The translations under genes were made by a program, and so were the position numbers. A DNA stretch of 47,562 bases, taken from Chlorobiota bacterium. Lineage in GTDB: Bacteria > Bacteroidota > Ignavibacteria > Tepidaquicellales > OLB5. The notes under the pieces are model-generated. The model worked only from the letters and a program-made list of their open reading frames with translations, ran no database searches and was not told the origin of the DNA. Location: positions 1-47,562 of the forward strand of contig JAKEEM010000001.1 of assembly GCA_022616535.1 (NCBI GenBank), written 5' to 3'. Each line of letters opens with the position of its first letter. Position 1 is the stretch's first letter. Of the stretch, positions 24,312 through 28,651 are shown one piece after another.

Positions 24312-24375
24312 TGCATTTTCTGCTTTTCAGACACCCTCTGTATCTCCCCCTTATTAAGGTAAAGATGTTGGCTCG

Positions 24376-24397
24376 TCCCCTCCTTAGCAAGGAGGGG
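24376..24397. repeat. GC-rich palindromic mosaic element, copy C
   Basis: CCCCTCCTT (24377-24385) pairs with AAGGAGGGG (24389-24397), the same stem as at 306-326 with an inverted loop triplet. It lies between the SemiSWEET and restriction-modification genes. Confidence 0.6.
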
Positions 24398-24641
24398 TGG
24401 CAGGAAGTGACGGGGTGGTCTAAAATTTCGCCTGACTGCAGCAGGCAGGCTGTTTTGGGCAAAAAGATACAGGGCAAAATGGCAGTGCAAAATTTCGTTG
24501 TATTGAGCAGAAAAGTACACGCCACAAAAAAAACCGTGCCTCAAAACCGATATTATGTAAAGTTGGCTTTTCGGAAACCCCATTTTTTGCCCATTTTTGA
24601 CTTGATGATATTTTGACATTTTTACACTCATCATCCCTCAG

Positions 24642-24674
24642 TGTAGGGTGCGACCCGCCGGGTCGCCCCTTACA
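24642..24674. repeat. GC-rich palindrome with GCGACCC/GGGTCGC arms
   Basis: TGTAGGGTGCGACCC pairs with GGGTCGCCCCTTACA around a short GCC loop; two bases are unpaired or mismatched. Palindromes with this GCGACCC-GGGTCGC core are common as dispersed intergenic repeats in diverse bacteria. Confidence 0.6.
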
Positions 24675-24728
24675 GCACAAGGTAAATTTAACACATTTGG
24701 ATTTATTTGTCAAGGTAAGTTAACAACT

Positions 24729-24759
24729 TTCACCTCATTAGGCACATATAGAGTGAAAT
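24729..24759. repeat. Palindrome TTCACCTCAT, copy 2 (degraded)
   Basis: It aligns with 60-90 in the same orientation at about 27 of 31 positions. The left arm (24729-24738) is identical; the right arm (24748-24757) has two changes that weaken the hairpin. Confidence 0.55.
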
Positions 24760-24870
24760 CCGATTTTCGGTTAACTCAATCAATTACTAATTGGTAATTA
24801 TTAATTAATAATTGTATATCATAAATTGCTGAGATTATGTAAATTTGGGAAAATTTAAAACTTTACTATT

Positions 24871-27114
24871 ATGTCATTAATTGATAAAGGGTTACAGGAA
24901 GGTCTTATCAAATTTGATGAGACGAGAAAAAGTATTACTTATACTACAATTAATAAAAAATACAGATTTACTGACCCGGAAGAACAGGTACGGGCTGAAT
25001 TGTATTTACAGTTAATATTTACTTATGGCTATAAAAAAGAAAGAATTGATTTGGAAGTCCTTGTACCCAGGAGAACACCAACAGATAAAGCGGATATCGT
25101 TGTATTTACAGATGATGAACTTAAAAACCCTTATATAGTTACCGAATGTAAAAAGCCTGAAATAACGGACGCAGAATTCATTCAGGCAATTGAACAAGGA
25201 TTTGGAAATGCTAACTCATTACGTGGTAATTACCTGATTGTAACATCAGGTTTAAAAACGGCTTACTATAATGTAAAAGACTTCCCGGTTGCCGAAAGAA
25301 GTGAAAACATAATCGCAGATATACCAAAAGCTGGGGAAAAGAAAACACATAAATATAAATACACCAAAGGCGGAATAAACGGATTTGAATTGGAATTAGT
25401 CAGCGAAGCAGAATTAGTAAGAAGATTTAAACAGGCGCACGATACGTTATGGGGAGGAGGGGAACGAAATCCATCAGAAGCATTTGATGAGCTTGATAAA
25501 ATTATTTTCTGTAAAATATGGGATGAACTTGTCCCAAGGAAAAAAGGTGAACCATACGATTTCCAGCTTTTCACAGGTGAGCATCCTGAAAGGTTAATGT
25601 CAAGAATTAAAAAGCTCTATCATAAGGGGAGAGAAAAAGACCCTAATGTATTTAGCGATAATATCACTATTACGCCACAGGAAATGCAAACTATAGTTGG
25701 CTATCTTGCACCAATTAACTTAAGCAAAACCAATTTAGACAGTAAAGGCAGAGCATTTGAAACTTTCTTAGGTGCATTTTTCAGAGGAGATTTCGGACAA
25801 TATTTCACGCCAAGAACAATAGTTAAATTTATTACCGATACACTGCCTATTACAAACGAATCGCTTGTGCTTGACCCGGCGTGCGGAAGCGGAGGCTTTT
25901 TATTGTATGCACTAGATAAAGTTAGGCTACTTGCAAGAAATATGACTGAACAAGGCTACTTTGAAGATACAAATGAAGAAAAAAAATACTGGCATGAATT
26001 TGCACAAAACAATTTATATGGCATTGAGATAAACAAGGGCATTTCAAGAACAGCTAAAATGAATATGATTATCCATGATGACGGGCATACAAACGTAATA
26101 AATAATGACGCTCTTGAAGATATAGAAAATAAAATATTCCTTAACGCAGTCAAAAATGGAAGCAAAGGATATAAAAATTTTAAAAAAGATAACTTTGATT
26201 TCATAATAACAAATCCTCCCTTCGGCTCAACTTTAAAACAATCCGAAAAATCGTACTTTACATATTATGAGCTTGCAAAAAAGTCAACGGACTGGATTAA
26301 GCTGAGGCTTGGGAATATCCGGACGAACGAATACAGAGATATGCAAAACTCAGAAATACTATTTCTCGAACGATGTTATAATTTTCTTAAAGTCGGCGGA
26401 TATTTAGCTATGGTAGTGCCAGATGGAATGCTAACTAATTCTACACAACAATATGTAAGAAACTGGGTTGAAGAGCATTTCAGAATTGTTGGAGTTGTTT
26501 CGTTACCTCAAACTGCCTTTACTGCCACTGGGGCAGGAGTAAAAAGCTCTGTTATTTTTTTAAAAAAGTATGACCTTGCAACAACAAAGGCGCTTCAGGC
26601 AGTAAAAGCAAAAACGCAGGATGAGTTATTTGAAATGCCTGTTTACGGACCTGCAATTAAACAGCTTGAAGCAAAAGAGGCAAGAATAATCGCAAAGGGC
26701 GATAATGTAATACAAACAATAACCGAAGAACTTGAAAATCACTTAAAAGCTCTTAAAGAACAGGGCAAGCTAACAGAGAAGGAAAGAAAGGAACTTATAA
26801 TTGCTGCAAAGGATAGAATAAATAAACATAAGAAAACCGAGGAATATCAAAACTGGAAAAGAGATATAACTGATGAATATAACGAAAAGATTGAAAATAT
26901 AATTGAAACTTTAAATGATGAATATATTAAAAAGGTTAAGGAACGCCTGCAGTACTACCCGATATTTATGGCGATAGCCGAAGATATTGGCTATGATGCA
27001 ACCGGCAGGATAACTGGTAGAAACGAACTTGAAGATATTTCAAAAGAACTCGCAAGGTTTATTGAAAACATAGAGGATAGGAAAGAAAGTTTTTTTCAAT
27101 TAGCCCTGGCTTAG
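24871..27114 (+). CDS. Restriction-modification subunit: PD-(D/E)xK nuclease fused to N6-adenine methyltransferase
   Basis: The product has 747 residues. Residues about 20-150 match the HsdR N-terminal nuclease fold, with the catalytic set Asp75 (ADIVVF), Glu92 and Lys94 (ECK). A helical region follows at about 190-290. The methyltransferase domain has motif I DPACGSGGF (335-343) and motif IV NPPFG (448-452), the signature of N6-adenine enzymes of the HsdM type. A charged, probably coiled-coil tail runs from about 590 to 720. Plain HsdM proteins lack the nuclease domain. With the specificity gene 35 bases downstream, the layout resembles BcgI-like type IIB systems, in which one subunit both cuts and methylates. 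No helicase-type HsdR gene is present in the window. Confidence 0.85.
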   Translation: MSLIDKGLQEGLIKFDETRKSITYTTINKKYRFTDPEEQVRAELYLQLIFTYGYKKERIDLEVLVPRRTPTDKADIVVFTDDELKNPYIVTECKKPEITDAEFIQAIEQGFGNANSLRGNYLIVTSGLKTAYYNVKDFPVAERSENIIADIPKAGEKKTHKYKYTKGGINGFELELVSEAELVRRFKQAHDTLWGGGERNPSEAFDELDKIIFCKIWDELVPRKKGEPYDFQLFTGEHPERLMSRIKKLYHKGREKDPNVFSDNITITPQEMQTIVGYLAPINLSKTNLDSKGRAFETFLGAFFRGDFGQYFTPRTIVKFITDTLPITNESLVLDPACGSGGFLLYALDKVRLLARNMTEQGYFEDTNEEKKYWHEFAQNNLYGIEINKGISRTAKMNMIIHDDGHTNVINNDALEDIENKIFLNAVKNGSKGYKNFKKDNFDFIITNPPFGSTLKQSEKSYFTYYELAKKSTDWIKLRLGNIRTNEYRDMQNSEILFLERCYNFLKVGGYLAMVVPDGMLTNSTQQYVRNWVEEHFRIVGVVSLPQTAFTATGAGVKSSVIFLKKYDLATTKALQAVKAKTQDELFEMPVYGPAIKQLEAKEARIIAKGDNVIQTITEELENHLKALKEQGKLTEKERKELIIAAKDRINKHKKTEEYQNWKRDITDEYNEKIENIIETLNDEYIKKVKERLQYYPIFMAIAEDIGYDATGRITGRNELEDISKELARFIENIEDRKESFFQLALA

Positions 27115-27149
27115 ATAAAAATAAAATTTTTATTGTAAGCTGGGGCAAG

Positions 27150-28553
27150 TTGAGTGAAAGGTTTGACCCTCTTTATTTAAAATATATTCTTAGTTTAATT
27201 CATTCTAAATACCAAGCATTGCCCTTAAAGAGGTTACTATCCAAACCCCCACAGTATGGGGCAAATGAAGAAGGTGTACTTAGAACTGATTTATTGCAAC
27301 CACGGTATATACGGATAACAGATATAGATGAATTCGGAATTTTAAAAAAAGAACTGGGATTTACTGCAAAAGTAATTGATAAGAAATATATATTGAATGA
27401 GAACGACTTATTATTAGCTAGAAGTGGCAATACAGTAGGGAAATCTTATATTCACAAAAAAGAAAACATTGCAGAAGAATGTTTTTTTGCTGGTTATATG
27501 ATTAGGTTTGTTTTAAATCATGAGCTTATAATGCCCGATTTTGTTTTTTATTTTACTCAACTCAATCCTTACAAAAATTGGGTAAATGCAATAAAAAGAC
27601 CGACTGGACAGCCAAATATTAATGCCGAAGAATACAAAGAATTAAAAGTACCCATATTAAAATTAACAGAACAAAAAAAAATAGTTAGTATTTTAAATGA
27701 TGCTTATGAAGGATATAAGCAGTCTTTGAATAAAGCAATTTTACTTCTTAATTCAATTGACGATTACCTTCTTAAAGAACTTGGAATAAAGTTACCTAAA
27801 AACAAATGGAGTGTTTTAAAATATAGGGTTTTTCTATCAAATATTACAGAGGTTGCCCAACAACGTCTTGACCCCAAAGGTCATCACCCATACTACGATT
27901 TACTTAAAGAATCAATAAAAAAATGCAGATATTCAGTGAAACCATTAACCAATTTAATTTCACATTTTTGTAACGGTGATTGGGGTATTGATGAGGAAAA
28001 AATAGAAAATCCAAAACTGTTTGAAAGATGTTTAGTCATTCGTTCAACAGAAATAGACAATGAATTTAATATTAATTTTGAAAGCGGTAGAGAAAAATTC
28101 CGGTTCATAAGCAAAAGGAAACTGGAAACTTTTAATATAAAAAACAACGACATTTTAATTGAACGTTCGGGCGGAAGCCCTGACCAGCCTGTTGGCAGAG
28201 TTGCCTTTATCGAGAAACCTTATATAAATAATACAAGAATAAGTTTCGGAAATTTCCTATCAAAAATTAAAGTAAACCAAGAGGTAGATAGTTCATATTT
28301 ATTTAATTTTCTGAAAACAATTCATAATATCGGATTAACCGAAGTTATGCAGACTCAAACTCATGGAATAAGGAATCTACTTATAAGAGAATATTTATCA
28401 CAATTCATACCTATTCCGCAATTAAAAAAACAACACCAAATTGCTGAGCATATAGCCCAAATCCGTAGTGAAGCAAAACGTATGCGTGAAGAAGCAAACA
28501 AGCAGCTTGAAGAAGCAAAAAAAGAAGTAGAAAAGATGATATTAGGAAACTGA
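27150..28553 (+). CDS. hsdS: Restriction-modification specificity subunit
   Basis: The product has 467 residues, the usual HsdS size. It has two target-recognition halves (about 20-180 and 235-420), each followed by a conserved helix: QKKIVSILNDAYEGYKQSLN near 190 and HQIAEHIAQIRSEAKRMREE near 440. PPQYGANE and RSGNTVGKS fit the first recognition domain, and ERSGGSPDQPVG fits the second. It would set the two-part DNA target of the nuclease-methyltransferase encoded just upstream. The start is TTG at 27150. The two genes are on one strand 35 bases apart and are surely an operon. Confidence 0.85.
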   Translation: MSERFDPLYLKYILSLIHSKYQALPLKRLLSKPPQYGANEEGVLRTDLLQPRYIRITDIDEFGILKKELGFTAKVIDKKYILNENDLLLARSGNTVGKSYIHKKENIAEECFFAGYMIRFVLNHELIMPDFVFYFTQLNPYKNWVNAIKRPTGQPNINAEEYKELKVPILKLTEQKKIVSILNDAYEGYKQSLNKAILLLNSIDDYLLKELGIKLPKNKWSVLKYRVFLSNITEVAQQRLDPKGHHPYYDLLKESIKKCRYSVKPLTNLISHFCNGDWGIDEEKIENPKLFERCLVIRSTEIDNEFNINFESGREKFRFISKRKLETFNIKNNDILIERSGGSPDQPVGRVAFIEKPYINNTRISFGNFLSKIKVNQEVDSSYLFNFLKTIHNIGLTEVMQTQTHGIRNLLIREYLSQFIPIPQLKKQHQIAEHIAQIRSEAKRMREEANKQLEEAKKEVEKMILGN

Positions 28554-28620
28554 AATACCTTTGCTCCATTCACCCCAGAACAAAACCCATAAAACCAAAA
28601 ATTACCGCTTACTATTCACA

Positions 28621-28651
28621 TTTCATTATAAACCGCATTTAATTATATTTG
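28621..28651 (+). promoter_or_regulatory. Possible promoter of the tRNA genes (TTTC-N19-TATATTTG)
   Basis: TATATTTG at 28644-28651 fits the TAnnTTTG box of Bacteroidota-type promoters. A TTTC lies 19 bases upstream. The tRNA-Arg gene begins 57 bases downstream. Confidence 0.4.

Follow-up and report, generated by a model that had tools for sequence, protein, structure and literature searches.

Which kind of restriction unit is formed when a nuclease and a DNA methyltransferase are encoded in one gene, followed by a gene for a specificity subunit and accompanied by no HsdR helicase gene? We analysed a locus of this composition in Chlorobiota bacterium (assembly GCA_022616535.1), within a window consisting of positions 1 to 47,562 of the forward strand of contig JAKEEM010000001.1; all positions given below are those of this 47,562-nucleotide stretch, and all features of the two genes lie on the + strand. 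The first gene, RM (24871..27114), encodes a 747-aa fusion of nuclease, connector, N6-adenine methyltransferase and helical knob, as recognized by Pfam, profile and structural model. The second gene, S (27150..28553), was recognized by Pfam as encoding an HsdS-like specificity subunit with two target recognition domains (TRDs), of 467 aa when counted from a TTG codon, the true start possibly lying up to about 36 bases upstream. The spacer between the RM stop codon, ending at 27114, and the S start at 27150 is 35 bases. Upon re-reading of the ORFs, the coordinates, spacer, ORF sizes and motif positions of a first-pass annotation all proved correct. The Pfam search that it had proposed, when run on RM, detected HSDR_N_2 at residues 36-152 (E 3e-16) and N6_Mtase at residues 290-585 (E 5e-34), in agreement with its claim of an HsdR-type nuclease and a complete HsdM-type methyltransferase in a single chain. 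Likewise, Methylase_S matched the downstream protein twice (E 1e-20), as claimed for a two-domain HsdS. Scans for promoters and terminators around the unit gave no clear signal above shuffles.

We then analysed the nuclease domain, which occupies residues 1-135 (24871..25275) and was assigned to the PD-(D/E)xK type based on the HSDR_N_2 match, AlphaFold and Foldseek. An AlphaFold model of residues 1-175, built from 74 family sequences, reached a mean pLDDT of 92 and showed the order helix, three strands, helix and strand, as in PD-(D/E)xK enzymes. The nuclease fold, the loss of which the first-pass annotation had named as an argument against its reading, is thus retained in the structural model. 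The active-site residues D75 (25093-25095), E92 (25144-25146) and K94 (25150-25152), spanning 25093..25152, correspond to those of the Type IIB enzyme BsaXI; in the model, D75 and E92 are located on core strands and K94 right after the second core strand. Together with C93 and Q109, these three residues were invariant in all 81 aligned proteins (the window protein and 80 relatives). In a Foldseek search of the PDB with the nuclease domain alone, BsaXI took ranks 1-3 (best E 4.9e-5), followed by the Type IIG enzyme BpuSI and then the HsdR fragment 3h1t. A profile of the nuclease domain alone gave no match among PDB sequences at E <=10, but matches were obtained with the full-length profile and by fold search. 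With respect to the QxxxY motif of the RecB-like nuclease of HsdR, Q109 was present in 81/81 proteins and the Tyr in 73/81, while the remaining 8/81, which form the clade of the window protein, carry Asn. Since BsaXI has Leu at this Tyr position in the profile alignment, the missing Tyr is weak evidence against a Type IIB system, and we set QxxxY aside as a defining test. Another acidic residue, E62, was placed opposite E73 of BsaXI by the pairwise alignment; however, this position is Phe in 48/81 proteins, and E62 is therefore not claimed as catalytic.

The remainder of the chain begins with a multi-helical connector (residues about 179-303, 25405..25779), which was identified from AlphaFold helices and matches the BsaXI connector. 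The N6-adenine methyltransferase of the gamma type, located by Pfam and conservation at 25738..26625, shares this chain with the nuclease according to Pfam, profile and model; it carries motif I, DPACGSGGF, at residue 335 (25873-25899) and motif IV, NPPFG, at residue 448 (26212-26226), and CGSGGF and NPPF were invariant in 81/81 aligned proteins. A helical knob (residues 569-692, 26575..26946), recognized by comparison of the AlphaFold secondary structure with BsaXI anatomy (PMC11997821), lies ahead of the last strands, and no paddle follows it. The C-terminal strand/helix (26959..27075) contains the segment YPIFMAIAEDIGYDATG, which the profile alignment identified as common to BsaXI. The full-length AlphaFold model (pLDDT 87.6) accordingly shows nuclease, multi-helical connector, methyltransferase, knob and a final strand–helix tail; the paddle of the BsaXI long branch was not found in this model, the chain ending at residue 747 after the knob. 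Based on this model, RM is assigned to a short branch in which the knob is present and the paddle absent.

Both the sequence profile and the predicted structure, the latter for the full chain as well as for the nuclease alone, indicated RM.BsaXI as the nearest solved protein. A profile of 63 family members matched RM.BsaXI with an E value of 1.2e-61 and was collinear with it over profile positions 12 to 685, the alignment spanning the nuclease, the connector, the methyltransferase and the post-knob segment YPIFMA.AE..GY. Three BsaXI entries led the Foldseek search of the PDB with the full model, at about 850 columns. Replacement of D90, E105 or K107 of BsaXI by Ala abolishes cleavage in each case (PMC11997821). 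In the pairwise alignment, E92 and K94 fall directly opposite E105 and K107, and D75 pairs with D90 once a gap is shifted by two residues. Furthermore, fragment 43-116 of BsaXI itself matches HSDR_N_2 (E 7e-10), so the contrast that the first-pass annotation drew with known Type IIB enzymes, whose nuclease it held not to be necessarily HsdR-like, does not set RM apart from BsaXI. Nor is the novelty that it implied supported: BsaXI has the same HSDR_N_2-type nuclease, and Type IIB systems have already been described as effectively 'motor-less' Type I systems (PMC6158711).

The host assembly (2.89 Mb, 98.3% complete) was searched for HsdR. RM gave the sole match to HSDR_N_2, and neither HSDR_N nor TIGR00348 hsdR matched in the assembly; as a control, the TIGR00348 model matched in 10/14 control genomes. 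Six of the seven ResIII-type helicases of the host match PriA, RecG, Mfd, UvrB, RNA helicase and PcrA/Rep models. The seventh (L139, C11 of the host genome; 551 aa) showed only a weak match to the BPTD_3080 restriction endonuclease model and none to hsdR models including TIGR00348. The absence of an HsdR helicase gene from the window, as first annotated, was upheld, and a separate hsdR elsewhere, which had been named as an argument against the reading, was not detected in the host assembly, a small unassembled fraction aside. Nor was HsdR found in the flanks, of up to 8 kb, of the 80 relatives; the two SF2-helicase-like proteins encoded there have DinG/XPD-type domains and are not HsdR. RM is also the only strong N6_Mtase of the host assembly, the second match being marginal (20.9 bits), and S is its only Methylase_S gene by profile search.

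In S, TRD1 (27150..27692) was 46-56% identical to TRDs of the related loci L115, L008, L077, L103 and L080, the other TRD of which gave no match or a weak match to S. TRD2 (27789..28433) was 40-46% identical to TRDs of a different set, including L109, L110, L065, L105 and others, and between the two lies a central conserved helix (27753..27788) containing SIDDYLLKELGI, with the motif SIDDYLL at residue 202. The TRD matching S occupies the swapped position in L080 and L105. Judging from these alignments, the sharing of TRDs with different relatives represents modular exchange of the sort seen in working S subunits and expected where selection favours new specificities. Upstream of the TTG (27114-27150), the S reading frame stays open and reads KNKIFIVSWGKLSERFDP, which resembles the N-termini of S proteins of relatives. 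No ATG, GTG or TTG was found in this open frame upstream of the TTG at 27150. Because the upstream frame reads like the N-termini of relatives, the annotated start is uncertain; S may start from a non-standard codon, or its first residues may have been lost.

The unit lies between the SemiSWEET gene, with SprA on the same side, and tRNA-Arg/tRNA-His ahead of secD, and no other gene is present at the locus. Five genomes of the same family contain SprA, SemiSWEET, tRNA-Arg, tRNA-His and SecD, and in all five no gene separates SemiSWEET from tRNA-Arg. This empty site defines an insertion specific to the lineage, about 4.3 kb long and of approximate extent 24312..28640, and the unit was acquired by insertion. 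The GC3 of RM (28.7%) and S (22.6%) is below that of the neighbouring genes (37-47%), indicating that the unit arrived from elsewhere. Separately, an intergenic repeat of approximately 80 bp was observed in inverted orientation with 79% identity, at 24321-24397 (before RM) and at 306-387 (contig start).

A single scan of GTDB genomes yielded the 80 relatives kept, at 46-57% identity, in hosts from Bacteroidota, Proteobacteria, Cyanobacteria, Nitrospirota, Spirochaetes and others, and a scan of viral contigs gave one more. An S gene was recognized in 74/81 loci; in three of these, RM and S form one chain of 1141-1206 aa, the AloI-like form (L056:8001-11513, L059:8001-11423 and L099:1506-5123). 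Public records name relatives 'N-6 DNA methylase' beside 'restriction endonuclease subunit S'. Upstream of L007, the closest in-phylum relative found, we observed a gene (L007:441-1361) for a DUF5655 protein of 307 aa, which matched HSDR_N_2/NucS-like nucleases weakly. Genes resembling BRO-N/DinD and RhuM in sequence were present between RM and S in L061, L102, L081, L113, L103 and L107; genes of both types are passengers of type I operons.

In 25 related loci, a third gene of about 490-570 aa was located either between RM and S or immediately downstream of S, often with only 0-13 bases from stop to start between it and its neighbour. These comprise 24 loci with a recognized S, among 63 judged to have enough downstream sequence, and the viral contig L116; examples are L037:11659-13146, L071:11630-13342, L062:10171-11649, L093:10181-11725 and L095:10157-11737, in addition to 20 other loci. 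Of the 25 copies, three have a reduced length or are broken off at a contig end. The protein combines a DGQHR-type N-terminus (TIGR03187, below cut-off) having an R-DGNHR motif with a nucleoside 2-deoxyribosyltransferase/TIR-like C-terminus. A search of the host genome of the window with one member found no third gene, and a literature search for the DGQHR–deoxyribosyltransferase pair found nothing usable. Given this gene neighbourhood, RM, S and the third gene possibly form a three-gene defence system. An extension of this idea, which we regard as improbable, is that the short paddle-less family is not plain Type IIB, many of its members instead serving as the core that recognizes and cuts DNA in a three-gene system in which the DGQHR and deoxyribosyltransferase/TIR-like protein responds to an unmethylated site; the window would then hold a minimal version, from which the third gene has been lost or was absent from the outset.

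Taken together, the unit is very probably an intact R~M plus S system of BcgI/BsaXI-like Type IIB organization, its placement relative to BcgI, NgoAVIII and other characterized Type IIB enzymes being made through BsaXI. In such a system, S would bind a bipartite sequence via its two TRDs, and two RM chains would dock on it, probably as (RM)2S. Using SAM, each RM chain would methylate one adenine, one per strand and one in each half of the site. At a wholly unmethylated site, the N-terminal PD-(D/E)xK domains would cut a short, fixed distance away, probably on both sides, with need for neither ATP nor translocation, and such cutting may serve in defence against phages. The reading proposed in the first-pass annotation, a motor-less relative of type I systems that cuts near its site and has BcgI-like subunit logic, is supported: it agrees with all tests made here, including the confident nuclease fold and the lack of a detectable HsdR, and the literature describes Type IIB likewise (PMC6158711).

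The cleavage geometry may differ from that of BsaXI, since RM is only about 25% identical to it and does not have the paddle needed by BsaXI. BsaXI cleavage requires the paddle residues D816 and E823 (PMC11997821), and RM ends after the knob, which would suit an enzyme that acts near its site in a non-classical manner, for example by one-sided cuts or nicks. On the other hand, other accepted Type IIB enzymes also have no paddle (PMC11997821), and a symmetric pair of RM chains on a bipartite S favours two-sided cuts, so that we consider such non-classical cutting unlikely. A decayed unit that only methylates is very unlikely: the low GC3, pointing to arrival from elsewhere, and the S start with no obvious upstream start codon are consistent with it, but both ORFs have their full length and RM retains all of its nuclease and methyltransferase residues.

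Two further explanations were weighed. RM and S could be a type I methyltransferase (M2S) served by an HsdR encoded elsewhere, the nuclease-like domain being only structural or cutting after recruitment of the motor; the best-matching PADLOC model, PDLC03030, does bear the name of a type I methyltransferase, and the public names of the relatives agree with this. We nevertheless regard it as highly improbable, as HSDR_N, TIGR00348 and a second HSDR_N_2 are missing from a 98% complete genome, six of the seven ResIII-type helicases match other models, L139 matches no hsdR model, and the flanks of the relatives contain no HsdR. Alternatively, the pair could provide the modification function within a larger defence system of the MADS sort, where an HSDR_N-bearing methyltransferase (MAD2) and an S subunit (MAD5) serve only to mark self DNA. 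The NCBIfam MAD2 model does align with residues 27-580 (E 1e-88) and MAD5 matches S (E 4e-23); however, the scores of 298 versus 720 bits for MAD2 and 82 versus 400 bits for MAD5 are far under the curated cut-offs, the locus contains no other gene and relatives have this site empty. Because of these low scores and the missing partners at the locus, MADS membership was rejected, and a role as a modification module of this type is highly improbable.

As a Type IIB system, the unit would add to the sparsely characterized Type IIB enzymes a widespread branch found in many phyla, the members of which databases label as type I methyltransferase or N-6 DNA methylase. If active, this branch would provide new both-side cutters, and the missing paddle would help decide the role of the BsaXI paddle. 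Nuclease–HsdM fusions are kept by nature in many lineages, whereas an engineered HsdR-nuclease~HsdM fusion methylated DNA and did not restore restriction (PMC6158711). Both follow the idea of a type I nuclease domain joined to HsdM for work with S, but that fusion was made in the laboratory, and RM is its natural, conserved counterpart.

Among known systems, type I enzymes (EcoKI, EcoR124I) share the M and S parts and the HsdR-type nuclease fold, whereas the unit described here has neither HsdR nor an SF2 motor. MAD2/MAD5 of MADS show a similar HSDR_N-methyltransferase plus S arrangement, from which the unit is separated by scores far under cut-off and by a locus with no candidate MADS partner gene. 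The single-chain Type IIB enzymes AloI, PpiI and TstI contain the same nuclease, methyltransferase and two TRDs, but in one chain instead of two genes. BcgI, the founding Type IIB enzyme, likewise has RM and a two-TRD S as separate subunits and no motor; in published models, its nuclease domain does not superpose on those of other RM plus S Type IIB enzymes (PMC11997821). RM.BsaXI/S.BsaXI (PDB 8w0p, 8w2p and 8w2q) shows the same domain order, a separate S and the catalytic D, E and K at matching places, although identity is about 25% and RM.BsaXI has 916 residues with a paddle, compared with 747 without one. The unit is of a kind already known from BcgI and BsaXI, and it differs from BsaXI in its low identity and absent paddle.
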